Part shown: positions 2 through 59,907 of the stretch, piece by piece
How the letters are laid out: each line of letters starts with the position of its first letter
How positions within the stretch are numbered: position 1 is the stretch's first letter
NCBI GenBank assembly: GCA_002205965.3
Contig: NADL03000514.1
Span: 1 to 64,000 of the forward strand
DNA length: 64,000 bases
Direction: 5' to 3'
Source: Kappaphycus alvarezii
Lineage: Eukaryota; Rhodophyta; Florideophyceae; Gigartinales; Solieriaceae
Notes under the pieces: model-generated
Database searches by the model: none
What the model saw: the letters and a program-made list of their open reading frames with translations, nothing else
Told to the model about the DNA's origin: nothing
Made by a program: the position numbers and the translations under genes

Positions 2-420
2 AAACCTCATTTCAGAAACTTTGGTGACAGATCTAGGTCTCGAAATTACTCCAACGACTCGAAAATAACTGTAGCGGATGGAACCGTCTCAAAATGCATG
101 GGCACTGTTGACAAGGTTTCCGTGTTCTTTGGGGACTCTAAAGTTGATGTAGACTTTCTTGTCATGCCGGATCTCCCTTTCGATGCAATCATTGGCTGCC
201 CCACAATGGAAAGACTAGGACATGCATTGACTTGGGCAACCAAATGGTTTCAGTTAATATTGACGGCAGAACCGTGAAGATGCCCCTGGATTTCGACAAA
301 AGCACGCATCCTGAAGATTTAAAAGAAACGGACAGTGAAGATTTCACTTCTAGCTATGACAGCGAAGATTCGGAACCAACTAACACTTTCGGAAGTGGAA
401 AAGGGTACCCTCGGGGGTAA
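2..420 (+). pseudogene. Ty3/Gypsy pol: aspartic protease remnant (left edge)
   Basis: This is the C-terminal part of a retropepsin-like protease and the linker to reverse transcriptase, cut by the window edge. In the frame starting at base 2 the reading includes ITVADGT and DLPFDAIIGCP, the usual late strands of a Ty3 protease. That frame ends at the TGA at 275-277. The continuation (NIDGRTVKMPLDF, then an acidic Ser/Glu-rich linker) lies one frame away and ends at 420, so a one-base indel sits at roughly 225-240. The catalytic Asp-Ser/Thr-Gly should lie left of the window. The downstream RT frame is again in the first frame. I infer a decayed genomic copy, because a programmed frameshift inside a protease would be unusual. 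Confidence 0.7.
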
Positions 421-445: not shown

Positions 446-2299
446 TTCGGGTTTGAAACAGATGACGACTGGAATTCTAGGATAAGTTTGAAACCCGAAT
501 GTGTTTCTTTTTGCGATGATATCGAATCAAAGGACAGAATTCGGAGCATGAAAGAAGATTACCTTTGCAAAGAAAATAAGAATACGTCGAATTCCATATA
601 TGAAGATGTGAGCACGACGGAAGAGGTCCTTCAAAATATTGAGGTTGAGGATCAAGAAGAAAAAGGGCGCCAAATGGCAGAAATCCAAGGAAAAGTGCAG
701 CACCTTCCCGCCCCCGCCTCACTGAAAATATCCGACATGTTAACATCTTCCGAAGTAATTGCATGGAGCGTTTCAGATTTAAGACAAGCAAGTGTACCGG
801 TTACTCACTCGTTCGAACTTACCGACACTCAACCGATTTACCACAAGCCTAGACGTCAACCGCCAAAATATGACCAATTTATCTCAGAAAATGTTACAAG
901 TATGCTGAAAAATGATATTATTCGACCAGTTTCATCCCCATGGTCGTTTCCAGTTGTGGTCGCACCAAAGAAGGATGGAAAGCTGCGTTTTTGCGTCGAT
1001 TACCGACAACTGAACCAGAGAATGATACCCGATCGATTTCCGATTCCGAACATGGAGGAGATCCTCGAGGACCTGAAGGACGGGAGATATTTCACCTCAA
1101 TTGACCTTTACACTGGCTATTGGCAGATTCCATTGGATGAAAAATGTAAGGAAAAAACAACCTTTACCAGCAAAGCCGGTACGTTCAGGTTCGAAGTGAT
1201 GCCTTTTGGTCTCATGAATGCACCAGCTACATTCCAAAGAATGATGAACGAGGTTTTGAAAGGACTTCCATTCGCAAGAGTCTATATCGATGATGTCGTC
1301 ATATTCTCAGAAACATTGGATCAGCACATCTCGCACGTCAAGACAGTTGTGGAGAGGATATCGGAGTATAGCTTGAAAATTAAGTTGAGCAAATGCTTCT
1401 TTGCGAAAACTTCTATCCAATTACTCGGTCATATCGTCGACCAAGAGGGAATTAGAGTGGATCCAGAGAAAACGAAAAAAATAAAGTTGGCACCAAGGCC
1501 CGCTTCAAAGACGGAGGTCCGAAGCTTCTTAGGACTGGCCTCATATTACAGAAGATTTATCAAAGATTTCGCCAAGACTGCAGCACCGTTACATGCCAGC
1601 ACTACGAAGAACGGAAAATTTTACTGGAACAAGGAAATGGAAACTGCATTTCAGGAGCTTAAAGATAAGCTATGTGTCCCCCCAGTTCTCATGTACCCAG
1701 ATTTCAAGAGACCATTCGTTGTGGAGACAGATGCCTCAGAACGGTCTTTGGGTGCCGTTTTGTCCCAAAAAGATGAAAACGGAAGACTACACCCTGTTCA
1801 ATTCGCAAGCCGAACTCTGAATGACGCGGAAAAGAGATACTCAGTCTGCGAGAAAGAAGCGCTAGCTGTCGTCTTCGCGCTGAAAAAGTTTCGCGTATAC
1901 CTTTTATCACTCGAGAAATTTGTCTTGATAACTGATCACCAGGCACTTAAAACAGCATTCCAAAAGAAGGATGTACATCACCGCTTGGCCCGATGGCTCG
2001 ACATTTTCGCAGAATATCGGTTTGAAATTGTGTATAGACCCGGACGCAATAATCAGCCTGCCGATTACCTATCCCGCTTGAGGGACGCACTGATTCCAAA
2101 TGAAAAAGCTTCGGAGGACATCGTCGGAGTCGCCGAGTTGCAGTTGCCGAACGATAACGAGTACGAAGCTAATATTCACGGACTGATCAAATTCCTCGAT
2201 GGACTAGAAATGAGAAAGGTTGATCTTGAACACCGAAATTGGGTACGCAGGAATCAAAAGGCTTTTACATTGTGGAATGGGAAACTTCCGGCACACTAA
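446..2299 (+). CDS. Ty3/Gypsy reverse transcriptase and RNase H
   Basis: This pol segment would copy element RNA into DNA in virus-like particles. It is open from 446 to the TGA at 2297-2299. It is an internal polyprotein part with no real start of its own (first in-frame TTG at 488). RT is clear: SSPWSFPVVVAPKKDGKLR, then RFCVDYRQLN, FTSIDLYTGYWQI, the MPFGLMNAPATFQRMM motif and the catalytic YIDD at 1283-1294. RNase H follows with VETDASERSLGAVLSQ, EKEALAVVFALKKF, TDHQALKTA and a late Asp in PADYLSRL. Both catalytic sets look complete and there is no internal stop over about 600 codons, so this part is young or recently conserved. Integrase continues in another frame from about 2285. Confidence 0.93.
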   Translation, partial: FGFETDDDWNSRISLKPECVSFCDDIESKDRIRSMKEDYLCKENKNTSNSIYEDVSTTEEVLQNIEVEDQEEKGRQMAEIQGKVQHLPAPASLKISDMLTSSEVIAWSVSDLRQASVPVTHSFELTDTQPIYHKPRRQPPKYDQFISENVTSMLKNDIIRPVSSPWSFPVVVAPKKDGKLRFCVDYRQLNQRMIPDRFPIPNMEEILEDLKDGRYFTSIDLYTGYWQIPLDEKCKEKTTFTSKAGTFRFEVMPFGLMNAPATFQRMMNEVLKGLPFARVYIDDVVIFSETLDQHISHVKTVVERISEYSLKIKLSKCFFAKTSIQLLGHIVDQEGIRVDPEKTKKIKLAPRPASKTEVRSFLGLASYYRRFIKDFAKTAAPLHASTTKNGKFYWNKEMETAFQELKDKLCVPPVLMYPDFKRPFVVETDASERSLGAVLSQKDENGRLHPVQFASRTLNDAEKRYSVCEKEALAVVFALKKFRVYLLSLEKFVLITDHQALKTAFQKKDVHHRLARWLDIFAEYRFEIVYRPGRNNQPADYLSRLRDALIPNEKASEDIVGVAELQLPNDNEYEANIHGLIKFLDGLEMRKVDLEHRNWVRRNQKAFTLWNGKLPAH

Positions 2300-3482
2300 A
2301 GCCGGTCCCCGACTAGTGGCCCCTTTGAAAGAAAGAATGAAGATCTTGAGGACTTTCCATGATGAGCTAGGGCATTGGGATCTCGAAACAACCAAAAAAT
2401 TCGTAACTGAGAGATTCTGGTGGCCCGGTATCCATAAGGACGTCTATAACTTCGTGAAAAGCTGCGACAACTGCCAAAAATTCACTCCAATACGGAAGTA
2501 TAAGACAACTCTAAGTTTTCCAGTTTCCGGTCTCTTTGAAACCTTCTCAATTGACTTCGCGGGCCCGTTCAAGGAAACTTCTTCCGGAAACAAATATCTC
2601 CTTATAGGGGTGGAACATCTTACTGGATGGCCAATAGCAGTTGCAGTCGAGGAGGCAAATGCTGAGGTGGTACTGAGATTCATCGAAAAAGAAATAATTG
2701 AACCGTTTGGTCTTCCAAAAAGGATCATCTCGGATAACGCCCTTTGTTTTACTGCAACTTCACTGCTTCGTTTTTTGGAAGAGAAAGGGATTCAGCTGAA
2801 GACCGTTCTCGCATACGCTCCTATGTCCAACGGGAAAGCGGAGAGGATGGTTGGAACCATCAAACGAGCAATATCGAAAACTATGTTGGAGAATGAAATC
2901 CAGTGGGAAGATGCCTTACCAAAAGTGTTATACGGCTACCGTCGAAGAAGAGGAAGAAATGGACGCTCACCATTCGAGCTAATGTACGGAAGGGCTCCTA
3001 GAATGTTACAGAGAGACATGGAAACAAATATTATCGATGAAGAGAGTAGGGAAGTTGAACTACTGGCCACCGAAGGCTGGAGATCACACCGCGCGCTAAC
3101 ACAGACAAGAAATAAGGATGCAGAACCTGCAGTCAGAACCTTTTCAGTTGGCTCTAAAGTACTTGTAGTACATGGAAAAGCAATGCAGCAGGCTGTGAAG
3201 TGGCCGGCCTTCCAAACCAAGTACTCGAACCCTTGCATCGTCACGGAGGAAAGACACCCGCACTATCAGCTCTGTTCAAGCTCAGGGAAGAGATCAAGGA
3301 GGGCCATCCATGCACGTCGTCTGGTCCCTTACCATCAGAGGCCTGAAGAATTCCTTCTCACACAGGACTATGCGCAACCACGGGGCATACTCATCTTTAA
3401 CTATAGAATGATTCCTATGGAGGAAAAAGGGCCTGGGAATGGATCATCTCGGTTACGCGGGACTACTACGAACTCCACGTAA
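2220..3482 (+). CDS. Ty3/Gypsy integrase
   Basis: This is the DDE integrase that would insert the cDNA into host DNA. The first codons (2220 to about 2285) overlap the RT frame and are probably out of phase. Sensible reading starts near RHTKAGPRLVAPLKERM. An N-terminal zinc-binding HHCC domain is seen (HDELGHWD, then FWWPGIHKDV and CDNCQKF). The catalytic core has Asp in SIDFAGPF, Asp in IISDNALCF and Glu in SNGKAERMVGTIK. A C-terminal GPY-like part follows (VGSKVLVV). I see no classical chromodomain. The 80-base overlap with RT-RNase H most simply reflects a one-base indel near 2285. The next frame opens at 3407, before the integrase stop at 3480-3482. Confidence 0.92.
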   Translation: MILNTEIGYAGIKRLLHCGMGNFRHTKAGPRLVAPLKERMKILRTFHDELGHWDLETTKKFVTERFWWPGIHKDVYNFVKSCDNCQKFTPIRKYKTTLSFPVSGLFETFSIDFAGPFKETSSGNKYLLIGVEHLTGWPIAVAVEEANAEVVLRFIEKEIIEPFGLPKRIISDNALCFTATSLLRFLEEKGIQLKTVLAYAPMSNGKAERMVGTIKRAISKTMLENEIQWEDALPKVLYGYRRRRGRNGRSPFELMYGRAPRMLQRDMETNIIDEESREVELLATEGWRSHRALTQTRNKDAEPAVRTFSVGSKVLVVHGKAMQQAVKWPAFQTKYSNPCIVTEERHPHYQLCSSSGKRSRRAIHARRLVPYHQRPEEFLLTQDYAQPRGILIFNYRMIPMEEKGPGNGSSRLRGTTTNST

Positions 3483-4504
3483 TCATCCATTTCTACATTA
3501 ATATATGCCTATGTTTTCGTACGTTGAACGGACCATTGCTACCTGAAGAAGATTTCCGACTATTAATAAGAGTTCTATTTTCATTCCAAAACGGAAGGTT
3601 CACGGAAGCAGGTCCAGAGTTTGTGGAGGTAATATATCATTACTCTATAGGAAGATATGGAATGGTAGCTGCTGGAGACTTGTCGCAAACGTATCTGAAT
3701 ATTATCCGTCCAATTTACGTATTTCTCAAGAACAACCAAGACGTGCGACTGAGAGGTTACGCCTTACCCCCGGATATGGAATACAGGCTGGTCCCGTATC
3801 CTCTATGGGAACCTTACGTTTCTCCGCCACAAATTGGGAACGTTGGAGGCGGCGAGGATCCTCCTGAAGCAGTGATGATGACCAGAGGAGGACCTTCAGG
3901 AGACAACAACCCGCCCAGAAGAGGTTCCGGTCGTCCCCCGAGAGGACCTCGTGCAGGTCCCAGTACGTCAGGAGCTGGTCGCGGCCATTCATCGGGACCG
4001 TCCACCACAACTTCATCTCTAGCTCTGCTTCACAACCATGCACAGCATACAGTCGGAAGAAGAAGATTATCTTTTTGGCTGCGCAATATCTCCGAGGATG
4101 CGAACGATGCGCAGGTCATTTCTTATTTCATGATAAGCATCTGTTTATGTTTTAGGGCGCTACATGGACCGCACTTATCTTACGAAGATTCGTTCTTGAT
4201 GATGCGCGTCTTCTTTTCTTATCGACATCCATTCCTCCGGCATCTTCCAGAAGAGTTTGCATATCACATATATTTTTTCACTCTTGGAAGATTCGGAAGA
4301 GTCACGGAAGAAGAATGTATTCAACCCCACCTCGATGTGATCAAACCAATATATGAGGCTATGCTACAAAGTGAGGTACCAGTAATGCGAACCTACTTTT
4401 TAGAGCATCATATTGGTAATCAGTTGCATCCGTACCCGTTTGAGAGACCATACATTTTATCAATAAGACAGCGAACACTAACGGAAGCAGAAGAAGAGCA
4501 GTGA
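3407..4504 (+). CDS. Unknown protein with a tandemly duplicated domain, 3' of integrase
   Basis: This frame is open from a TAG at 3404 to the TGA at 4502-4504, about 365 codons, with no ATG near its beginning, so it may be read as a pol extension by frameshift or splicing. It has two copies of a domain of about 106 residues. Copy 1 starts at ICLCFRTLNGP (3503) and copy 2 at ICLCFRALHGP (4139). Both end at a PYP motif (3794 and 4430). The offset is 636 bases at both ends, so the copies are collinear with no net indel. Shared residues include RV.FS, EF, IY, GR.G, PIY and PYP..PY, roughly 35-40% identity by eye. Between them lies a Gly/Pro/Arg/Ser-rich linker (PPRRGSGRPPRG). I do not recognise the fold. 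Its position suits an accessory or envelope-like third gene of a Ty3 element, but no signal peptide or clear membrane helix is seen. Confidence 0.6.
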   Translation, partial: NDSYGGKRAWEWIISVTRDYYELHVIIHFYINICLCFRTLNGPLLPEEDFRLLIRVLFSFQNGRFTEAGPEFVEVIYHYSIGRYGMVAAGDLSQTYLNIIRPIYVFLKNNQDVRLRGYALPPDMEYRLVPYPLWEPYVSPPQIGNVGGGEDPPEAVMMTRGGPSGDNNPPRRGSGRPPRGPRAGPSTSGAGRGHSSGPSTTTSSLALLHNHAQHTVGRRRLSFWLRNISEDANDAQVISYFMISICLCFRALHGPHLSYEDSFLMMRVFFSYRHPFLRHLPEEFAYHIYFFTLGRFGRVTEEECIQPHLDVIKPIYEAMLQSEVPVMRTYFLEHHIGNQLHPYPFERPYILSIRQRTLTEAEEEQ

Positions 4505-4539
4505 CGACCCGGGACGTTCGCCTTGAGAAAGGGGGCGTG

Positions 4540-4627
4540 TAATACAAAAAATGGTCCTCCCCTCATTTAATACAGGAAATGGTCCTCCCTTCACGTAATA
4601 CAGGAAATGGTCCTCCCTCGTGTAATC
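4540..4627 (+). repeat. 28-bp direct tandem repeat
   Basis: Units begin with TAATACA at 4540, 4568 and 4596, with a partial fourth at 4622. Each contains AAATGGTCCTCCC. It follows directly on a purine-rich run (GAGAAAGGGGGCG at 4525-4537) that resembles a polypurine tract. It might regulate element transcription or mark a subterminal repeat. Confidence 0.8.
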
Positions 4628-4907
4628 CAGCAACCTACAACGATCCCGCCCCTAACTTCTCCACCGTCATTTCCAAATTTACTTCCATTTTATCTAGATA
4701 TTTTTATACTGTATTTAACCCTCTGAATCGACCCCGAATCAAGTCCCTTTTCCCTTTTAGCTTACCTCCTCCTCCAAATTCGCCTTTTTTTGAGAAGAAG
4801 GGCGCAAATGCACTATTGCAAAATCCCTTGCAGATTTATTTTACCTATTCCTAATCTATAGAACCTGCCCCGGGAGCCTATTTAAACCCCTTTATTCTAA
4901 GTTCCAA

Positions 4908-5601
4908 ATGCCCCCGATCATTTTACTCATCACCCCTCTCCCCCACACACCCAAACACCCTACATTGCCTCCGTTCCCCAACGTCTATCAAATGAGCAAC
5001 CTTCGCCCCTCTGTCCCTATTTCCAAAAACCGCCCTTCCCGTTCCATCAATGGCCTTCGTCTCGCCGCCTACGGGCCAACCGATGCCGACGACTACATCC
5101 GGCGGCAAACAAAGAAGCAAATCATCGAGTTCGTCGCCGCCTCTTCATAGAAGAAGAAGCGAGGGAGGTAAGTCCGGGAGAGGCTGAGAAGGTCGAGGAG
5201 GAGAGCGGGGAGTCCTTCGAGGAATGGTTAGCCCCTGAGCTAGTGTACGAGGCTCAGGAGAGAGGAGGAGGAGGAGGAGGAGGAGGAGGAGGAAGAGGAG
5301 GAGAGGATGAGGAGGAGAGGATGAGGAGGAGGAAGAGAGGAAGAGGAGGAGGAGGAGGAGGAGGAGGAGGAGGAAGAGGGAACAGGGGGCATGGAAAGTG
5401 TTGGACTGGTGGGGCCTGGAATAGAGTATGGATCAAGTTGTGCCCACGATGGAACCGGATGGAGATATCTTTAGTAGTCTAGATATCTCCCAGGGGGAAA
5501 TAGAGAGTTGTGAGCCATTCGCAGATATTTGTGGGGACTGCTTGGACAGCATGGATATTTTAGAGGAGTTGTTTGGATCTGATTTAGAGAATGGGAAATA
5601 A
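4908..5601 (+). pseudogene. Second accessory frame of the Ty3 element, frameshifted
   Basis: Coding-like sequence runs through three frames. From ATG 4908 (or 4992, MSNLRPSVPISKNRPS) it reads a basic, Pro/Ser-rich start and LRLAAYGPTDADDYIRR up to a TAG near 5149. An acidic stretch follows in another frame (EVSPGEAEKVEEESGESFEE), then a long Gly/Arg/Glu run encoded by the GGA repeat. A third frame from ATG 5428 gives an acidic tail (MEPDGDIFSSLDISQGEIE, then DILEELFGSDLENGK) ending at the TAA 5599-5601. A CTATTTAAA box lies about 30 bases before the first ATG. I do not recognise the family. The basic start with acidic end might fit a regulatory or nucleic-acid-binding protein, but that is speculation. 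Confidence 0.4.
5263..5375 (+). repeat. GGA/GAG-rich simple repeat
   Basis: Nearly pure purine strand made of GGA and GAG triplets, interrupted by short AGGATGAGG blocks. In the accessory frame it codes poly-Gly with Arg and Glu. Confidence 0.9.
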
Positions 5602-5615
5602 GAGGACCAAATTAA

Positions 5616-6044
5616 TTGTTAGTTTCTTAAGTATCTTTTGCTTAGAGTATATTGTCCACACAAAGTATTTTTATGCATTTCTTGGTATCTTCTGTAGTTT
5701 TGTTCGGACTTTAGGGGTAGCCAAAAGTCTATATAAGCTGAGTAAACTGCTTCCTCATGGAGAGGTCAAGCAAGTTGGCAGACAACTTCAAGCCAAGTCC
5801 CGAGTAGTAGGAAGTTGAGAGTCAACTTCAGACCCAAGAAAACTTTTTCTTACGCTAGTCGCAGAGCGTCGGTGGTAGACCCTGCCCCTTTTATACTTGC
5901 TTGTAGCTTTCTCAACTCTCTTCTATATACACTCCCTTTTGTTCGTTCAACAATACCACGGCAGCACTTTTGTCGCTCGCAACACCTCCTTCTCAGGGTA
6001 ATTGGTTCTGAGATCTCTTCCCCCGCCGACTTACCCCTATCACA
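5616..6044 (+). repeat. LTR-like sequence, probable 3' LTR of the Ty3 element
   Basis: Starts TGTTAGTTTC just after a purine-rich tract (GGGAAATAAGAGGA) and ends about CCCCTATCACA. It has a TATA-like TCTATATAAG at 5728-5737. It is clearly related to the reverse complement of 59515-59907: shared blocks include CTTGGTAT, GAAGTTG.GAGTCAACTTCAGAC, CCTGCCCCTTTTATA and ATACCACGGCAGCACTTTTG. Homology ending near 6042 supports the right border. The left border is judged from TG and the purine tract only. The matching 5' LTR would lie outside the window. Confidence 0.6.
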
Positions 6045-10497: not shown

Positions 10498-10505
10498 TCT
10501 TCACT
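10498..10505. repeat. Target site duplication of LINE copy 1 (left)
   Basis: TCTTCACT, identical to 11514-11521. On the minus strand it is AGTGAAGA, read as the Ser-Glu-Asp codons of the interrupted gene on both sides of the LINE. Confidence 0.85.
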
Positions 10506-11513
10506 GGTGGTAGATCTTTATTTGTCATACAATGTCGCACAGAGGCGTGCGGAGGGTATTTATAAATTAACTACGGATGCGGGCGGCGGGTAGAAACTTG
10601 TCGCGCCTGCATTATTTGGAGACTAAATGCAAAACGGGTAACGAAGTCGCGCAGCTCCTGTTGAGGGAGGAACCGCGACGGAAGCAGCGAAGGAAGCAAG
10701 GCGGCGGAAAAAAGCCTTACCGTCGTCGCCCAAGGCGCCATAGATATCAATCCCGACGGGGGAGAGGAGGATATCGTTTCGGTTGCAGTAAGTGCCGTAA
10801 TGACGATGTTTCTCGCGCTCTGCGAGTGTCGCGGCGGCGCCGGCAGTAACCGTACTTGGCGAAATGTGGCGGCGTGCGGAGGGGTGGGCAACAGTAACGT
10901 CGACGGCTATATCGGTACTGTGAAGCCCGTATGCAGCGGGTATGTAAATATCCATTCGTAGCACGGGGGACTCCGAATGCCCAGATGAGTCGGGAACCTG
11001 GTGGAGGAGCGGATGTTCGACGAGGGCGACGATCCCAACTTCCTTGCAGTAGCGGGCAAGAACGTTGCGGAGGATGTGGTGACGACGAGTCATTCCGTCT
11101 TCGTATTTGCAGGTCAACGCGTGTTGACCACTTGGATCTAAGACGGGTGCGATGTCGGCCGAGCGGCGGGAGCAGACCGGACAGCGAGTAGATCCAGGGA
11201 ATAGCGCGATGCCGAGACGTAGAGCCAGAGCGACTTTCCGCGCAGAAGAGGACATGTAGGTACCGTGGTGGGGGTGAGGAAGCGAAGAGAAAACAGTCGA
11301 TGCGGAGGATGTGCGCACGGAGAGGAGCCGTGCTCGGTCGTGGGCTGCCGCGGACGAGAACAAGCTATCGGACTTCGATAGCATGAGTTCAGTTGTGATC
11401 GCAGACTGGAGCCTTTCGCCGGGGACCGGCGATGAACAACGCTCGAAAAGAGCCGTAGCTGTAAGCGACGAAGACAGCTGCGGGTGGCGGGAGGATAAGA
11501 GCGAGATGGCAGA
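10506..11513 (-). mobile_element. 5'-truncated LINE (non-LTR retrotransposon), copy 1
   Basis: About 1.0 kb from the 3' end of the same family as the copy at 35.6-38.0 kb, in the opposite orientation and highly similar. It is bounded by the identical 8-bp TCTTCACT at 10498-10505 and 11514-11521, a target site duplication. Its minus-strand frame (11384-10623 open without a stop) codes the protein's C-terminal third: a zinc finger (CPVCSRR then HALTC), then a restriction-like endonuclease core (LRMDIYIPAAYG, STDIAVDVTVAHP, and Lys in EREKHRHYGTYC). The 3' end reads AATAAAGATCTACCACC with no poly-A. The 5' truncation fits normal target-primed insertion. RT is missing, so it cannot be autonomous. 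Confidence 0.88.
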
Positions 11514-11521
11514 TCTTCACT
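11514..11521. repeat. Target site duplication of LINE copy 1 (right)
   Basis: TCTTCACT, the partner of 10498-10505. It sets the LINE's truncated 5' border at 11513. Confidence 0.85.
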
Positions 11522-28253: not shown

Positions 28254-30616
28254 CTAAAGGTGAATCTTTTCATCCTCGCTCACATTCCTTCTGTGAGCCG
28301 CGTGATGCGCGAGCCTTTTGGCGGCCTTTTGTTCCTTGGCATCTACAATTTTCATGATTGCTACCGCCGGAGGGAATCCCTTCTCCAGTAGTCCGTACCA
28401 TGCAGGATCGATGTGCTCATGCGCAAATGCCTTGAATCTCGTCTTGATGTCGGTTGAGCTATGCACAATCTGCTTCCGCACCAATTCAGCCGCCTTCTTT
28501 TCTGTGTCGTGTACGTTGAGACTGAGCTTTCCAGTTAGGTATGACCTGATTTGACCTTCCTCGTATCCGGCCTTTGCAAACATAATGACTGATGTCCGAA
28601 CAATTGCGGGTGCTACTCGCCGTAACGCAATGAAAGCGTCCACAAACATCGTCACAAATTTGTCCCATACCTTGAGACTTCGGAACACTGCTTCCATCTG
28701 CGGTGCAATGGCAATTCGGGGCCCATCTATCGGAGGAGACGTACCCATCAGAAATCCAAAGTCAATATGCAACAAGTATCTGTCGTCTTTGATCAGCACG
28801 TTGTCAAAGTGACGGTCCCTTCCACTGCGCAAGTACATGTCCCACGAAAAGTACAATTGTATCAAAGGCATTCGTAACACGAAACCAGGTTAGTAGGTGC
28901 CAAGTGAGGCCAAAAAAACAGGGTGAGAAAATCCCAAACACAGCAAAAATCGCGTTGCTACGGTGACAATAACTTACCCACATACGTATGTCCCAACATA
29001 AGCCCCGACAGTGGATCGCACCATTTCATTGACGCGAGCGGGGTCTTTCCGTACTTGTTCCTCCACATGTGCCAGTCGTATTCCTTCAAACTTGTCAACC
29101 CCGTCACGGCCTCCATGAAACCTTGATTCGGAGATGTGGGAAATACTTCGTAGCTCCAACTAAATGGCACATCTTTCCCCTCACCTTCAAATAATGGTGA
29201 TTGTGCCCACACATGGTTGAAACACTGGAACATAATTTCGACACCCAAATCCTGCATCAAGTTATCTCCTTCTTTCACCAACAACCCTGGCTTGTAAACG
29301 ATGTAGCTGTCCTCCTCGTCTAAATCATGCCCCTCCATCGGGACACGCAACTCTATGATCATTGGTCGTGCAATACTCGAAAACACCTTGCGCACGACGA
29401 CCGAACCAACGACTGCTTCATCTTGATTAACCGTGTTAATTTCATCCAAGGAGAGCTGCGTCGTGGCCAGAGACTCATCACTCGTCAATTCTATCGAGCT
29501 GCCTGCGTCCGATCCATTCGAAATCCCATTGAACCCCGTTGGCGGGTTGACCAACTCTGCTCGACTCCCTGCATGGAGACAATGCATAGGATGTGCAATA
29601 GCGCGGTAGCCATATCGGTATCCCTTTTCCAAGCCCTTGACATACACACTGTCTGTCCAAAAGCTGTAACTCTGTAAATCGACCAGGTCCATCGGCAACT
29701 GAACCTCAATCTGCGATACTTTGGACCCACAGTGCTTCCGAAGCATTTCCCAGCTTCCCAGTTCTTTTCCATCGGTTGTGACAACCTTGCAGTGCCCCTC
29801 ATCGTCCCTTTGGGTTGCAATTCGACTCTGATACACCCTTCTGCGCTCGTCAGTGAAACGTTTCCCCCTGGCAGTAAGGGAATGAATAATACCAAGGTCT
29901 AGCATACGCTGGCCCATTGCGACAGCCTCGTCCCTCTTTTCAAAGTTTGCACGTTCCATGATACCGTCAACCAACTCATACGAGTAGAAGGCGTTTTTGA
30001 TGACGCGCATGTGCCATTTGATATTGCGAGTCCGAATGCCATGTTCACGATGTAGCAGCTTACTGATGGCAAATTCGACGACCAAATCTTGATTGGTCTC
30101 CCAACCATCGACGTCCTTACTATGCGCCTTGTGATGAAAGGTGCGAAGACTCTTGGCCATCTCAAAGCTTCGGTCCGACTGACCAACGCAATGCAAATTT
30201 TTAGCCTTCTCCGCCAAGATCAATCTGGCGGCGGTGTAGCAATCCCTGCGATGAATGAGGCGGACGTCCCAATGCTTTGCAAACTCTGCATTTCGAATGA
30301 GTAAGAGAAAGCGAAGCTTGAGACCGCGACACGAGGCAATTCGTAGTCGGAGAATGGAAACCAATCCGACGAAACGGTCACGCCTTTTTGGGGAGCTGCC
30401 AATTTTATGGATGGCAGCGAGGATGAGAGGAAGGAGACGAAAGAGGGCGTCGTTGTCGACACCGACAAGGGCGCCCGGGGAGAGGGATTCCTCGAGGTCG
30501 GGGGCGAGAAGGAGGGAGAGTAGTTCGGCGGAGTGGATTTGCTGAATGGCTTGGAGGGCGGTAGAATTGAGGGAGGTGGTGACGGAAGAGGTGGATGTGG
30601 CGGTGGATAGCGACAT
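28254..30616 (-). CDS. PI3/PI4-kinase-like protein with a DEP-like domain (2 exons)
   Basis: Predicted lipid kinase phosphorylating a phosphatidylinositol headgroup, or a related protein kinase, with exons 30616-28986 and 28824-28254 giving 733 residues. The start is the first ATG of the frame (MSLSTATSTSS). Residues ~180-265 look like a DEP domain (SYELVDGIMERANF, DEAVAMGQRMLDLGIIHSL), which usually targets membranes or receptors. The kinase starts near residue 405: IIELRVPMEG, YKPGLLVKEGDNLMQD (phosphate-binding Lys and QD as in this superfamily), then after the splice GRDRHFDN (Asp547, Arg548, His549, Asn552) and HIDFGF (Asp565). All catalytic residues are present. The C-terminus is long and basic. 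No C2, helical PIK or FATC domain is visible, so I cannot say which class it is. No stops occur in either exon. Confidence 0.85.
28825..28985 (-). other. Intron of the kinase gene (161 bp)
   Basis: On the minus strand the donor is GTATGT at 28985, the branch site CTACTAAC at about 28897-28890, and the acceptor GCGCAG ending at 28825, the first AG after the branch site. Only this donor joins the frames (phase 2) and restores the DRHxxN catalytic loop. The nearby GTAAGT would shift the frame. Confidence 0.8.
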
Positions 30617-33600
30617 AGTGAATGTAGGTGGTGCGGTAGCTTTGGCGGGGCGTAGCGGATGGTGAACGGGGCGAGTGGGGGATATGTGTGGAGGCTGTGA
30701 GATATAAATAAGATTGAGCGTTTTTCATATTCATTAGATTTTCGACAGGAACCGCAACTATGGTCTTAAAAATGACGTTTGTTATAGTGCTTGACATGGC
30801 CTTGCTGCGAGTGTCGAATACAAGCGTGTTTTGAAAACATGGAAATGAATGTTTTTTCAAATGTTTTCGGTGCCAAGGGAGCCTTTGAGTCAGAAAACGT
30901 GGCTTTGTCATTTCGCTAATTTGCACTGTGCACCGCCACTCTCGGTTCAGTGCGCTGTAACGTTGTACCGTACTGTACCGTACAGTGCACTATGCTACAC
31001 AAAGCCACATAGGGATGGGCACTTTGGCCTAATTCTCCACGACCGAGGTTTTCATAGGACAAGAGCGACGTATTCAAGCTTTTGTTCGTTTAAGCTTACG
31101 ACCTATCTGACTACATTCATATTCAACATTTTCAACTTGTTCTGCTCTCTACTTTTCGAGATACTTTCAAGCGCTCTTAGTTGCAATGGCGTTGCAATCT
31201 GGTAACGTACACTGTCGTTCTCGCAAGACAGTCGTGATCAAAATTTTCTGTTTTTTTATATTATGCTTTTTCTCTGGCGATATGCTAAGCCTTCCGAGTC
31301 CCGACTACAGCAAAACTCCCTCCCACCAAATTCCCGTCTCACAGTCTCAAACGCGAACAAGTCAACACTTCCAAACTGCATCGTAAACCTTTTCAAAAAC
31401 ATATGCATTTCATGGCAAACCACCAATTTCTAAGGGCAACACTACATATTGTATTAGATGCCAATGTGTGGCTGCCAAAAGTATGTACTGCACCAAGACA
31501 GTAAAAATCGACCCAATACCCACCAATGACTATCTCGTAGTAAGCAAGCCGATGCCGTACCTTGTTGAGGGTGGCACACATCCTACCGTCATTGGAGAAG
31601 TAATGCTCAACGTACTGTACAGGTTAGGGTAGATTTGTTCTTTCATTCTGTTTGCAATGTCACCAATTGGAATGGCCTCCGTGTCCCGAATGCTTAGAGG
31701 TGCTGCTACCGCTTTTCTCTTGAGACGCCTTACAGAGGGGGTCCCGCCTGTGCTTTCGCTGTATTGATGTGAGAGTTTAGTGTAAGCACTACTCCTTGGG
31801 CCTTACAGCATTGTTTGCGCGCATTTGCAATGATCTGTTCTACGGTACAGTACTGTAGATGGGTACAATACGTACAGTACAGTACACGACTGTACTCGGT
31901 CGTGCAGTTCATTTCTCATTTACTACCGTATTTCAACGCGTTTGTCGCTCAATGCATTAACCGACATTACAGTTCCAGTAGGAGCAAACCGGATATGCCA
32001 TGTCAGCAGTGGTACGGGAAAGAGCTGGGGAGAGAGCCCAACTGCAACGCTTGCGGTCAGGGGAGCTTGCAGTTGGGTTTTCTGCCACAGGATGTGCACA
32101 GACATTTCATTTCCACTGCACATGGGATGCAAATAGTATCGTAATTACTCCATTGGATACGATGCTTAGCGCAATCGCATTGATTCCGCATTACTAGTTT
32201 CTAGATAAGTAATGAGTAGATACAGTACAGTATCATCTCGTTCTAATTCCAAAAGCATTCGGGAGAAACTGCATTCAGTGGAAGAGCGGACCAGATGAAG
32301 TAAATGCACCTCCTCATTCAAAACGCAGTGAAATGCCAATATTGCAAACAAATTAATAAGAATGATATTTCGCACCTGTACGGGTAGACCCTTTTCAGAC
32401 GCCCACTGTCAGTTAACTTGCTGATCCGCTTGCCAACCCTTTTCATCCATTCTATAAAACATAAAGATAATGACACGTATAGTAGGTGTACCGTTAGATA
32501 CAACCATGAACACATTGACTCGTTCAATAGCTGATCAGGAGGTCTTGTTGTACTTTATGCCGTAGCATTCCTACCAGTCGTCATCCATGGATCCAATTCG
32601 CCGGGTCATGTCCTACAGCTTCCACGGTGCTGACCCGCTATGCCTTTTTGTGGAGGTTACCTAACCTTACGCTTTTGATTCTTTTACGTCCTTGAGGCTA
32701 CCGTAGTAGCCCTCTGCGTTGCTCTCAGAGTAATGATATTGAATACAATGCCAGTTTAATGCCGTAGAATTCAGAGAGCCCGCAGTACCGAATCGCCGCC
32801 GACAACAAGGGTACTGTACCTACACAAAAAGGCCATATCAGATTGGGAGAGGATTAGAATGGAACCAACTATTTTTGGTCCCTCCAATTGTGAGCCAAAA
32901 AGGGGAAAGTTGGGGTGTCTTTACTGTTGAAGGATATATTCGATCTATCCTAAAGTTTTCCAGACAACTAAATCGACTCAAAAAGTTGTGCTGACACAGT
33001 AATGGGGGAGGAACTACGATCCCGTAAAGGCTGCCTTCAGGCCAGCCATCAAGCAAGCTACATTGGACATGAGCCAGAAATGCATCCCAGCAAAGGTCCC
33101 GGAGTTCAGCATCAATTAGAATTAAGTCAGCAAGCGGAAGGTAGTTCAAAAGAGTCGAGTTTGAACAACGTGGACGCGACTTCGAAGATGCAAAATACGG
33201 AGAAACCGTCCAATTGGGAGCGCTCAAGAATCGCAACTCGCACCACGGAACCCTCCCGAATTCCTCAATGGGATATGTACATGACGAAGAGTTTCCACTA
33301 TCGCTCAACTCCCTCAGCTTTTCGTCGTTTTCCTGCATTCCTCAACTTTTTTCTTCATTTCTTTACTCCCTCAGCCCCCCTCCCCTACTTTTTCCATACT
33401 TACTCTGTGCTACTTGCTTAATACAGATATATATACCTAAAGTATTCCAATGTGACTGTCAGCGTGTCCGATGATCATCATCCAGTACCCGCAACTGTAG
33501 AGAGACTTTTCTTTGTAACTTGTCTAGTCACTCCGTTTCGGACAAATTCATTTACTAATGCAGTGCGCGTGTTGGACGGCGACGTTTGCGAGGTGAAATG

Positions 33601-35639: not shown

Positions 35640-38026
35640 CCACCCCCCATTCCAATCATTCCTATGCCCCCTCACGGTTTGCCTCCGGCGCTGAAGTTCT
35701 CGGTCTCGGATGTCCGCCGTGCCATTCACAGCCTGGATCCTTCAACTGCTCCGGGGGCCGATGGTCTATCCCAGTGCTCCTGCGAATGCTGCTCCGCCCT
35801 GCAGGTGGGGTCACGCCCGGGAGGGATTGCCTACATGCCTTGACAAAGTTCCTCAACCTCTGTTTGAACAGCGATCTGCCGGCCGCGTGCCGCCCGTATT
35901 TCTGCGGAGGCCGTCTTACTGCGCTGCCGGAGCCAAGCGGGGGAATCCGTCCGATCGCGGTTGGGCTTCTCTACCGACGCCTAATTTCTAGGCTCGCGGC
36001 ACACAAAGCCACCCCCGCCATCCGCTCCTACCTTCTGCCCCATCAGGTCGGGGTAGGCGTCAAGAACGGCACCGATGCAATAATTCATTCTGTGCGTCGT
36101 CTTTCCCAAAGATCCGAGTTCCACGATCATGTCTTGGTCCAGATCGTTGCCCGCAACGCTTTCAATTGCATCTCCCGCCAGCGCATTCTGGAAGCCGTAT
36201 AGACACATGCCCCAGGCCTCGCACGGTGGGTACACTCTAGTTACGATGCTCCTACAGAGCTTGCTTTCGGACCCTACTATGTCCGTAGTTCAGAGGGCAC
36301 TCAGCAAGGTGATCCCCTCGGTCCCTTGCTCTTTGCCCTAGCTCTCCATCCCCTCTTGCTATCGTAACAGGAGAAGTTCTCACCTGCCCTGAACGCTTGG
36401 TACGCAGATGACGGTAACATTGTTCTTCCTCGGTCCCACGCCGCTGCTGCCATCTGTTTCATCCAGCATGAAGGAGGTCCACTAGGGTTCCAGCTCAACC
36501 TTGCCAAGACCCGAGTTTACGGCTTCTCCCCTTCCCACTCCCCTTTGGCACTTCCTTGCCCTTTTCAACCCCCCCTGGTTTCATCGTCCTGGGATCCCCG
36601 ATTGGCTCGGACGCTTTTGTTTCCCAATTTTTCGCAGGCCGCCAAAACGCATTTGACCGCATCTTCCAATCCCTTCGAGACTTGGATGATGCTCAATTGG
36701 CTTTCCACTTACACCGCTTCTGCGCGAACGCCTCCAAGGTCATGCACTTGCTACGTACGCTTCCCTCCACTCAATCTGCGGTTCTCGCCGCTAGCTTCGA
36801 TCAGAAGCAGAGGGAAGCGTTCCACCAATTGCAGCTGCCCTGTCTAGAGCGAGCCTGGCTCCAAGCCTCTCTCCCCTTCTCCATGGGCGGTCTAGGTCTC
36901 CTGCAAACTTCAGATATTACCGAGGCTGCATACGCAGCATCTGCAATTGATTCTTTTGGACTTATCTCCGACCTGCTTACTCTTTCCCAGGACCGCCACT
37001 TGGAAGAGATCCCTCGGTCTGCCATCTCGCTCTTATCCTCCCGCCACCCGCAGCTGTCTTCGTCGCTTACAGCTACGGCCCTTTTCGAGCGTTGTTCTTC
37101 GCCGGTCCCCGGCGAAAGGCTCCAGTCTGCGATCACAACTGAACTCATGCTATCGAAGTCCGATAGGTTGTTCTGGTCCGCGGCAGCCCGCGACCGAGCA
37201 CGGCTCCTCTCCGTGCGCACATCATCCGCATAGTCTGTTTTCTCTTCGCTTCCTCACACCCACCACGGTACCTACATGTCCTCTTCTGCGCGGAAAGTCG
37301 CTCTGGCTCTACGTCTTGGCATCGCGCTTTTCCCGGGATCTACTCGCTGTCCGGTCTGCTCCCGCCGCTCGGCCGACATCGCAACCGTCTTAGATCCAAG
37401 TGATCAACACGCGTTGACCTGCCAATACGAAGACGGAATGACTCGTCGTCATCACATCCGCCGCAACTTTCTTGCCCGCTATTGCAAGGAAGTTGGGATC
37501 GTCGCCCTTGTCGAACATCCGCTCCTCTACCAGGTTCCCAACTCATCTGGGCGTTCGGAGTCCCCCGTGCTACGAATGGACATTTACATACCCGCTGCAT
37601 ACGGGCTTCACAGTACCGATATCGCCGTCGACGTTACTGTTGCCCACCCCTCCGCACGCCGCCACATTTCGCTAAGTACGGTTACTGCAGGCGCTGCCGC
37701 AACACTCGCAGAGCGCGAGAAACATCGTCATTACGGCACTTACTGCGGCCAAAACGATATCCTCCTCTCCCCCGTCGGGATTGATATTTATGGCGCCATG
37801 GGCGACGACGGCAAGGGTTTTTTCCGCCGCCTTGCTTCCTGCGCTGCTTCCCGTCGCGATTCCTCCCTCAACAGGAGCCCCGCGACTTCGTTACCCGTTT
37901 TGCATTTAGTATCCAAATAATGCAGGCGCGACAGGTTTCTACCCGCCGCCCGCATCCGTAGTTAATTCATGATTACCCTCCGCACGCCTCTGTGCGACAT
38001 TGTAGGACCCATAAAGATCTACCACC
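35640..38026 (+). mobile_element. LINE (non-LTR retrotransposon) with restriction-like endonuclease, copy 2
   Basis: The longer copy of the family at 10.5-11.5 kb. It begins coding-like at about 35660 (LKFSVSDVRRAIHSLDPSTA) and ends at the conserved 3' terminus ATAAAGATCTACCACC (38011-38026), which equals the end fixed by a target duplication in copy 1. No target duplication was found here, and the 5' border is unknown and possibly truncated. The order RT, zinc finger, restriction-like endonuclease is that of early-branching LINEs (R2/NeSL/HERO/CRE type), which usually pick specific targets. Confidence 0.85.
35660..37920 (+). pseudogene. LINE polyprotein: RT, zinc finger, restriction-like endonuclease (decayed)
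   Basis: RT motifs in order: SVSDVRRAIHSLDPSTAPGA, SGGIRPIAVGLLYRRLISRL, LPHQVGVGVKNGTDAI, then LVQIVARNAFNCISR, where the usual catalytic Asp is Val. Next are EGTQQGDPLGPLLFALALHP and WYADDGNIVLPR with YADD at 36401-36412. The RT part has TAG at 36200 and TAA at 36365. A frameshift near 36550 leads to an open frame with one TAG at 37231 (a Ser codon, TCG, in copy 1). The tail has a zinc finger CPVCSRR...HALTC (about 37348) and the nuclease core RMDIYIPAAYG, DIAVDVTV and the later Lys (37570-37740), ending at TAA 37918-37920. The stops and lost Asp make RT inactive. Confidence 0.85.
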
Positions 38027-39002
38027 ACAGATCTACGCATTTCATTTAATTTTCACGCAAAATGCCTTGTACTGCTCGCATGCTTACCTCCCGTCTCAGC
38101 TAGATATTCTTCCTCTCCTTTCCAGCTTACCTCCACCCTCCACTACCTCCAACGCCACGGGCACCTTTCAGGTGCACGAGAAACCCTAACCGCTGCCTTC
38201 CACCGTTCTCGTCGTTATTCGTGCCTCCAGGCTCCTGACACCTTCGAGCCTCCCGCCCATCGTCTTGCGCAGAACTTGTCCTGTCGAACGCAATCTTCCT
38301 ACTGAAATTTCTCCGAACAACCCGTCGCCAAGCTGTCTACCAAAGCTGACCCTGAAATTTGAACTATGATAGTGATGCTACGGCTCGGTAAACCGATCTT
38401 CCCAGGAAACTAGCCCTGCCCCGCTGTGTGCCCTCTTCCTGTCCCTCCCCGCCACTCCTCGACCCGCTTGCAGTCCACGCCACCACTTGCCCCTCCTCGG
38501 AAGGTTACGTCGGACGTACTAAATCCCTTTAGCTCTCACAACGCCCACAGGCAATTGATGTCTTCATATTCAGCCCCCACACCGCTCGCGCCCCACCTCA
38601 GTCTCGCCGCCGTCAAGCAAGCGCCAGTGCCGGATTCGAAGCACATAAAACGCAACGCTACGCCGCCATGTGCTCTTCCATTAACGCCAAGTTTCACCGT
38701 TTCGGCCCCGACACATATGGTGCGGATATTTATTCCAAAGGTAAAACACCCAAACCTTTCCCAATGTGGTAGCGTCGGGAAATCTGCCCATACACTGCTC
38801 GCCTTCCTAGCTTCCTACTTCGCTCGTCGCCGTGGTACGAGTTCGACTACTGAATACCTCCGCCTCCTTACTACGATCTCGTCCCTCACCCTGCTGCTCA
38901 CCGCACAAGCCGTAACTCGTAGATCTCTTGCACTGGCCACTCCAGATTGACCCCTGTCCTCATTCAATAAGTATTCGCCTCTCTCTTGTATACGGGATCC
39001 GG
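38027..39002. other. No supported gene
   Basis: C/T-rich sequence between the LINE and the piggyBac element. An open frame at 38426-38950 is Pro/Ser/Thr-rich, with no known motif and an equally open minus strand. One copy of the CCAAAGGTAAAACACCCAAA motif lies near 38736. Confidence 0.55.
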
Positions 39003-39053: not shown

Positions 39054-39228
39054 CCATATTTCTAACGACTAGATTTTATATAAAAAACTTACAGAATGAC
39101 ACCATTAGCTTTTCACCATATCTAATAGCACCCTTAGGTAGTCAACCGTGCAAAAATTCGGAGTTTGCTCCTCAACAGTTCATTCGACCACACAATAAGT
39201 TTGTCAACATCGAAAAATTGAACCAAAA

Positions 39229-41272
39229 ATGACGAATCTAAATGACCCCCGTCAACAGCCCGGAAACCTTGTCAACACTCGCGCAACCCTTGTCACGTCA
39301 GCGGCTGAGTGTAAGCGACTATTCGGTTACCTTTGGAGAAGTAAACGCGTCAACAGAACCGTGGTCAACATCGAAGTTGACACATCTACCGGAAGACGTC
39401 AGACTTCAGTCACCGCAGACTGGTCCATTCAGGACAGGACAAAGCGCGTCAGCTTGAAACTCGTCAACATCAAGCCAGGAGAAGCATCTGAAGGTGACCT
39501 AGCAACGTCCAATGAAATGGAGCCAACTGCTGCTGGGGTCGACCTACCGAATCGTCAACCTTCTGTTGAAGAACCTCGAGAAGAAGCCAATGGGATGGCC
39601 GGAGTAGGAGGGGTATGCAAAGAAGTGCATGGAAAAATTTGGACCAATCAGGAGGTAGTATTACCGTTGAATGGATCAACGGCATGTCGGCCATTGAAGG
39701 TAATTGACCCAGCAGGGAACACGTACATACAAGGTCATACCGAGTATGCGAAGACCCCGTATGATTTTTTCCTTTGCATGTTTACCGTCGAACACCTTTC
39801 TACAATTACCGAACTTACAAACCGGAAACTCGCTAATGGTGGGCACATGCGTACATTAGCTGGTGAAATTCGAAAGTTTTTTGGAATTCTCATATTGCTA
39901 TGCAGATTCGAGTTTACAAGCAGAAGGTCACTTTGAAGTACACAGTCTACATCCAAATACATTCCATTGGCGGCTTTTGGAAAAATAATTTCGAGGAACC
40001 GTTTTGAAGCACTGGTCTCATGTATTGCATTCAGTCGCTACACTGAAACTGAAAGCACTGACTGAAGATGATCATTTGTCAGCGGATTCGTGGAGGCCAT
40101 AAAACGGCATAGGAGGTCAAGTTTTTCGCCATCGGAGAGAATTTGCGTGGATGAATGCATGTCGCGCTGGTACGGAATGGGGGGGGACTGGATGTCAGAA
40201 GGACTACCGCACTATGTCGCCATGGACCGTAAGTCTGAAAACGATTGTGAGATCGAGACTGCATGCTGCGATGTCAGTGGAATTGTATTGAATTTGGAGA
40301 TTGTTTTGTCAGCATCTGACAGCAGTAATCGGCGTTATGAGTCAAATTTCCCTCATGGTACTGCTATTGTTCTTCGCCTTAAAGACCCTTGGTTTCATTC
40401 AAATCGACTTGTCTGTGCAGACTCTGCATTTGCTTCTGTGGCCACAGCAAATGCGCTTTTCGAATATGGACTGAGGTTTACAGGTGTCGTCAAGAATGCG
40501 ACAAGGCAGTTTCCTATGTCATTTTTGTCAGGGCTGGAAATCTTCAGGCGCGGAGATCATATCTGTATGGTAAGTCCCAGGACGGAAAGCCACCCTTCTA
40601 TGATGGCCGTTCTGTAGATGGATAGAGACAGAAGATACTTTGTCAGTACTTCCGGTACAACACTTCCGTCAGAGCCTATCAGAAGATCTCGTTGGAGATC
40701 TTCTGGTAATGAAACGGTGCTTGTTGAAATGGAAAATCCAGTTCCAGCGGTTGTCAGCACATATTATCAAACGTGCTCCCAGATTGACAGGCATAACAGA
40801 TGCAGACAGTATGATCTTGGATTGGAGAAGAAATTCGAAGTCAATGATTGGTCACTGAGGGTTGATACATCTTTGCTTGCAATTTGCATCGTTGAATCAT
40901 GGCTGCTATACAAGGGTTTGATGGGTGCAAGATTTTTATGCAAAACTTGCAGAGCAACTCATTGACAATTCATTTGATGCTATTGGACTCCGCAGATCTG
41001 ACATTGACGTTCCAGAGGATTCTATTCCCTCATTGGCCTGCGGTACTGGAATGCACCTGGTGCCCACAGTGAAAAAGCGCAAAGGAGCCAATGGGGCCCC
41101 AACGAAAGCGGCGTTTCAAAGCAGATGCAAAATTTGCAAACCTGACAAGAAGTACAAGTTTCTCTGCTCTGAGTGCCTGAAACTGAACAAAGAGGTTTGG
41201 ATATGCCATTCAGAGACAGGACGTAACTGCTTTCAAAATCACTTACGCGATGTCCACTTCTGTCATAATTAG
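39229..41272 (+). pseudogene. piggyBac-type transposase (DDE_Tnp_1_7), decayed
   Basis: Cut-and-paste transposase starting at ATG 39229. The N-terminus is charged and hydrophilic. The conserved part begins with AKTPYDFFLCMFTVEHLSTI, TNRKLANGG and GEIRKFFGILILL. The frame stops at TGA 39934 and has a short frameshifted patch near 40060-40090. It then resumes with RICVDECMSRWYGMGGDW (first Asp), EGLPHYVAMDRKSENDCEIE, LVCADSAFASVATANALFEY (second Asp) and LRFTGVVKNATRQFPM to a TAG at 40615, then MDRDRRYFVSTSGT and TCSQIDRHNRCRQYDLGLEK (third Asp). After a last frameshift near 40925 the Cys-rich end follows (CKICKPDKKYKFLCSECL, WICHSETGRNCFQNH), ending at 41272. All three catalytic Asp are kept. 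Only stops and indels disable it. Confidence 0.9.
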
Positions 41273-59514: not shown

Positions 59515-59907
59515 TGACAGGGATAAATCTTCAGTGGAAGAGATCTTCAGGATCAATTACCCCTAGGAGGTATTGTAAGCGAAAAAAGTGCTGCCGTGGT
59601 ATAGTTGTGCGAACAGAAAGAGGTGGTTAAGAACTACAGTTTAACGGGCTTCAAGTCAGTATAAAAGGGGCGGGATCTACCATCTAAGCTCTGCGAGCAG
59701 CGTAAAATAAACGGCTTTGGTCTGAAGTTGACTCCCAACTTCCCAAGTATTTGAAACTGACTTGATTTTATTTTCCAACTCTCTTGAACTCCACAAGAGT
59801 AAGAAGTTTATTCAGCTTGTATAAACTTTTTGGCTGAGCCTAAAGTCTCAAAAGAAACATACCAAGTACCACAAAATACATCAAATGGAATCTTGTGAAC
59901 GAGAACA
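59515..59907 (-). repeat. Solo LTR-like sequence, inverted relative to 5616-6044
   Basis: Its reverse complement starts TGTTCTCGTTCAC and ends CCCTGTCA. It matches the LTR-like sequence at 5.6-6.0 kb over most of its length, including the TATA-like region, GGAAGTTG.GAGTCAACTTCAGAC and ACCACGGCAGCACTTTT. No internal element sequence adjoins it, so it is probably a solo LTR. ACTAAT occurs right outside the left-hand part (59497-59502) and at 59908-59913, a possible target duplication if the LTR extends to 59503. Confidence 0.65.

Follow-up and report, generated by a model that had tools for sequence, protein, structure and literature searches.

A 64,000-nucleotide stretch at the start of Kappaphycus alvarezii contig NADL03000514.1 (hereafter the window) opens with a long terminal repeat (LTR) retrotransposon of the Ty3/Gypsy (Metaviridae) type, whose Pol polyprotein continues past the integrase into a tail built from two copies of an orphan domain. 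The layout is very likely PR-RT-RNaseH-IN-(domain copy 1)-(Gly/Pro/Arg linker)-(domain copy 2), where PR, RT and IN denote protease, reverse transcriptase and integrase and the tail forms a C-terminal extension of Pol. A first-pass annotation of the sequence had instead read the tail as an extra gene, a third frame behind the integrase. The tail and its parts lie in the window copy as follows.

3407 to 4504, plus strand: tail, C-terminal Pol extension (in frame with the integrase in 55 of 58 distinct copies)
3419 to 3820, plus strand: domain copy 1, tail residues 5-138 (self-alignment; helical in low-confidence models)
3821 to 4054, plus strand: Gly/Pro/Arg/Ser-rich linker (composition; mostly coil in a low-confidence model)
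4055 to 4456, plus strand: domain copy 2, tail residues 217-350 (self-alignment; helical in low-confidence models)

In the open reading frame listing of the window copy the tail comprises 365 codons without a stop, a run with a chance probability of 2e-9 at the given base composition. Residues 5-138 and 217-350 align without a gap over 134 residues, 48 of them identical, at an offset of 212 codons or 636 bases, and the BLOSUM62 score of this self-alignment is 234 compared with a mean of 29, a standard deviation of 4 and a maximum of 51 in 500 shuffles; the remaining five frames of the tail DNA, which are not independent of the tail frame, score 28-97 in the same duplicate test. The collinear, gapless halves reported in the first-pass annotation are thereby borne out, whereas the unit length of 106 residues given there was too short. 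The Gly/Pro/Arg linker described between the halves is likewise present, at residues 139-216 as read from the translation, and is also rich in Ser. Between the two domain copies the first, second and third codon positions are identical at 63/134, 84/134 and 53/134 codons, respectively, with pS at 0.76 and dN at 0.64. The saturated synonymous sites, taken with this dN, show that the duplication is old and that both copies have been retained as protein since then. Each copy has a conserved hydrophobic stretch, and the structure models point to a domain of ~130 residues that is probably helical.

A search of the genome (336 Mb, 884 contigs) with the tail gave 112 scored matches from 5653 first-look candidates, and 30 loci were fetched. 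Matches to tail residue 4 onward within frames of 434-1373 amino acids account for 110 of the 112, and in the other two, which are the window and a copy on C834, the match starts at tail residue 1, within a 365-amino acid frame. The family has at least 112 copies whose tail proteins are 99-100 percent identical; its members do not lack the frame, a point that the first-pass annotation had proposed to check. Because this sample was ranked by the tail itself, we took a second one ranked by the integrase (query bases 2300-2900), in which 1943 candidates gave 40 scored matches and 30 loci were fetched. By position, two copies occur in both samples (L001 = L060, L013 = L061), leaving 58 distinct copies, and six of the 30 integrase-ranked loci are also among the 112 matches (L060, L061, L063, L069, L072 and L079).

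The integrase frame continues into the tail in 28/30 tail-ranked loci, which at ~3418 show a net difference of one base from the window; among the integrase-ranked loci 28/30 are in frame at the junction, the exceptions being the window and L068. In total 55 of the 58 distinct copies are fused, the other three, including the window, having a one-base difference at the junction, and L052, found as the neighbor of another copy, is also in frame. The separate look of the tail frame in the window is thus a one-base difference at ~3418, a caution that one differing base in one copy can suffice to give a Pol extension the appearance of a new gene. The same count does not support a third gene of the ORF3 or env type downstream of pol, in a frame separate from the integrase.

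An early sign against a free-standing gene had been the tail frame itself, whose first ATG does not come before residue 86. The foremost competing explanation, that the tail is freed from Pol by the element protease or started at a Met just upstream and acts as an accessory protein of its own, for instance in silencing suppression, particle assembly or RNA handling, nevertheless gains from a Met that lies in frame directly upstream of the tail in the fused copies, and several kinds of third-ORF proteins are described in bdelloid LTR elements (PMC5408684). Set against the lack of any separate frame in the 55 fused copies, we consider it rather unlikely.

The tail was further compared among copies for signs of constraint. 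In the integrase-ranked sample there are 26 variable tail sites from 3425 to ~4400, of which 15 are synonymous and 11 nonsynonymous, where 17.1 nonsynonymous sites are expected if all changes are transitions (P = 0.012) and 21.0 if all are transversions (P = 1.7e-5), a ratio of ~0.27; these are distinct sites, each judged against the window copy, and not independent events. Without the sites of L065, where they cluster, 7/19 are nonsynonymous (P = 0.0096 and 3.5e-5), and for sites common to at least two loci the count is 1/6 (P = 0.02 and 0.0014). Constraint on the tail protein among element copies is thus supported. Together with the codon positions and dN between the domain copies, these counts agree with the selection on both copies suggested in the first-pass annotation, and dN/dS among element copies, a check named there, is not near 1; yet small tail indels are common in the integrase-ranked sample.

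These indels weigh against a conserved tail. Tail indels of 1-3 bases occur in 23 of the 24 loci that are off the tail-ranked list, one or more per locus, and the single such indel of L082 is 3 bases long; the alignment of the 24th locus, L056, stops at 3629. The integrase-ranked sample holds 54 indel events and 55 substitutions in the tail (19 of the latter at site 4027) compared with 5 indel events and 8 substitutions in the integrase from 2901 to ~3420, and L052 has two tail indels with no tail substitution. The denser indels in the tail than in the adjoining integrase oppose strong frame keeping at large, and favor a chance or decaying frame without function. That account is contradicted by the duplicates and the variable sites, both of which show protein constraint, and the indels themselves may be partly artificial. 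In the tail-ranked loci L002-L030, bases 1950-3424, mostly integrase, also show 125 indel events against 27 substitutions relative to the window, and 98/133 indel events (L052 included) lie ≤6 bp from a run of at least three equal bases, compared with 1189/2587 positions. So many indels beside so few substitutions lead us to ascribe some of the indels, tentatively, to misassembly of near-identical repeats. The same loci have 92 substitutions and zero indels in 3425-4537, a range that includes bases past the stop codon, an absence expected from a ranking that used the tail protein. We therefore disfavor a functionless frame as the least probable explanation of all.

As to the identity of the domain, no significant relative of the tail was found in Pfam, PHROGs, NCBIfam, PDB sequences, IMG/VR or GTDB, in keeping with the first-pass annotation, which had not recognized it, and no Pfam family matched the tail at E up to 1. 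Domain copy 2 aligns over ~80 residues to three chains of fission-yeast Sap1 at E = 0.68-1.0. This match, though not significant, is what suggests a tandem Myb/SANT- or Sap1-like domain through which the tail would read DNA directly, the Myb/SANT likeness being an assumption of ours. No match was obtained for copy 1 or for the two-copy profile, and Sap1 is unlisted in a structural comparison of the weak models, so that we regard such a domain as improbable. The helical, low-confidence models would also suit a Gag-like (capsid) structural module duplicated to the end of Pol; the profile of the tail against 257 residues of the element's own Gag gave an hhalign probability of 0.3 percent, and the tail has no capsid match in Pfam or PDB; we consider a capsid module very improbable. 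The conserved hydrophobic stretch in each copy might instead mean that the tail derives from, or is related to, an envelope-type or membrane protein that became fused to Pol, as was considered for the extension of Gypsy_Ds1 (PMC7998251). Two collinear copies on a polar linker are in our impression unlike an envelope protein, and with no Pfam family even at that relaxed E value we rank this explanation no higher than the Sap1-like one.

Integrase tails help set the landing sites of retroelements and thereby host survival. For comparison we examined eight other rve-bearing loci, chosen from 150 scored places, which by our reading are six Ty1/copia-type and two Ty3-type elements (L089 and L090). 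Both Ty3-type loci carry a Pfam Chromo match above the cut-off near the frame end (E = 4.5e-8 and 4.3e-7), while the integrase and tail together gave no Chromo match at E up to 1 and thus hold no Pfam-detectable chromodomain. The tail therefore occupies the place where L089 and L090, in the same genome, carry a chromodomain, and a tether becomes the simplest mechanism. The tail would stay with the integrase in the particle and enter the nucleus along with the cDNA, where its binding to chromatin, to DNA or to a host protein would keep the integration complex at acceptable sites; the integrase core would supply the chemistry and the two tail copies on their linker either avidity or two ligands. 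We give the reading as a whole, in which the integrase tail takes the position of the chromodomain and has a tethering role, about an even chance of being right. The tethering or target role taken by itself, which is suggested by position, falls somewhat short of that and is the most likely of the functions that we can name. If it holds, a conserved duplicated orphan domain at the position of the chromodomain would be a new tether worth investigating.

The remainder of the element in the window copy comprises the following features.

2 to 420, plus strand: end of the protease region, in two frames, truncated by the start of the window and contig (Pfam matches below cut-off; by eye)
446 to 2299, plus strand: RT and RNase H frame of Pol (Pfam RVT_1, 2.3e-35; RT_RNaseH, 7.1e-39)
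2214 to 3482, plus strand: integrase frame of Pol (Pfam Integrase_H2C2, 2.9e-18; rve, 1.4e-9)
~2322 to 2486, plus strand: H2C2 zinc domain within the integrase frame (Pfam)
~2547 to 2813, plus strand: rve core within the integrase frame (Pfam)
4538 to 6042, plus strand: 3' LTR, 1505 bp, TG...CA (comparison of copies)
4992 to 5601, plus strand: LTR reading frame (U3 side) with an acidic product, broken in the window copy

The domain order RT, RNase H, H2C2, rve, all over Pfam cut-offs, and the LTR features identify a Ty3/Gypsy element, as the first-pass annotation had held. The integrase it called intact-looking is less so, given that pol of the window copy is spread over several frames, as in most copies, and the integrase and tail frames of that copy overlap at 3407-3482. 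The stretch after the rve core we take to be the usual SH3-like C-terminal part of the integrase. Protease matches in Pfam are sub-cut-off only (E = 0.018-0.16), with a protease-like motif seen by eye in L031-L035. A purine tract at ~4524-4537 ahead of the 3' LTR and a primer site behind the 5' LTR were also found by eye, and in L031, L032, L033 and L035 the 5' internal region of the element comes after the same LTR end.

The tail occurs with two LTR forms, that of the window in L001 and L003-L022 (L005 is cut by a contig end and the LTR of L008 has diverged) and another in L002 and L023-L030, with a different U3 beginning right behind the purine tract. Over 1950-6042 in the window and L003-L022, Pol is nearly invariant and the LTRs are variable: diversity is 0-0.003 in 24 of the 25 100-bp bins of 1950-4449 and 0.007 in one, and 0.001-0.15 from 4550 on, with single loci carrying many of the LTR differences. 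The frame inside the LTR encodes ~200 amino acids, an N-terminal part with basic residues followed by an Asp/Glu tract and an acidic end that we take to resemble an activation domain. The tract varies in length and derives from a purine microsatellite. Of 19 loci compared, L007, L013 and L015 (tract there partly in another frame) are open from Met to stop; L005 is cut short in this comparison, and L003 and L009, which lack the search motif, were left out. The frame was not found among the compared loci of the other LTR form, and its product has only sub-cut-off Pfam matches, mostly over the acidic tract. More tentatively still, the orphan tandem domain could have replaced the chromodomain in a successful Ty3 lineage as a new class of integrase tail, a target-choice module in which each copy reads a different partner, in one LTR form beside the acidic protein encoded by the LTR.

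Several other features were observed. At L050 and L052 (G000:C788) two copies stand in tandem around a single shared LTR, which belongs to one copy and leads straight into the internal region of the other. Within the window, a divergent relative is represented by a fragment at 59515-59885 (minus strand) that has 74% identity to the 3' part of the LTR (5669-6042). An inverted 1-kb repeat, 95% identical, lies at 10505-11513 (minus) and 37018-38027 (plus) and overlaps the long frames 10623-11516 and 36472-37920, which look like retroelement pieces; those of these frames tested gave no Pfam match. At 39199-40617 (plus) Pfam DDE_Tnp_1_7 matches two pieces, narrowly missing the cut-off in the first, and these presumably represent a piggyBac-type transposase. 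A host-like gene at 28254-30724 (minus) encodes a DEP domain and, toward the C-terminus, a PI3/PI4-kinase-like part whose Pfam match falls just short of the cut-off.

Among known systems, chromodomains are a common integrase tail, and in one survey most of the fungal Gypsy elements detected have one in Pol (PMC3248453). The element resembles chromoviral Ty3/Gypsy integrases in having an extra domain fused after the integrase core, where Pol ends, and differs from them in the nature of this addition, a different and apparently helical domain that is present twice, with a long linker. In yeast Ty3 the integrase C-terminal domain (CTD) and chromodomain behind the catalytic core make contact with TFIIIB and take part in determining the integration site (PMC8632968); the tail similarly follows a presumed SH3-like CTD, and target choice is the use to which Ty3 puts its own domain. 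The Ty3 chromodomain is recruited to TFIIIB at tRNA genes, whereas here no tRNA gene lies within 400 bp in 17 3' flanks (16 fetched and that of the window; G+C 0.34-0.59). Among these flanks, two have a 29-bp match in common, another is similar to part of L008 and one enters another copy, and their sequence bears no trace of targeting. ICTV places env, if present, downstream of the integrase (PMC7879559), and bdelloid rotifer LTR elements have varied ORF3s (esterase, exonuclease, env-like; PMC5408684), which share with our element coding matter between integrase and 3' LTR and differ in that ours is in frame with Pol. In Gypsy_Ds1 of the ostracod Darwinula stevensoni, Pol likewise extends past the integrase, by ~250 amino acids without detectable homologues, as a possible env remnant or protein-contact module (PMC7998251); that extension differs in its remote coiled-coil/spike similarity and possible furin site, and the consulted part of the report mentions no duplication. 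Tandem orphan-domain copies in frame with an integrase were not found in the literature searched, as far as it was available. A Pol extension behind a Ty3 integrase is thus of a known kind, and tandem orphan-domain copies fused to it in frame are a new variant.
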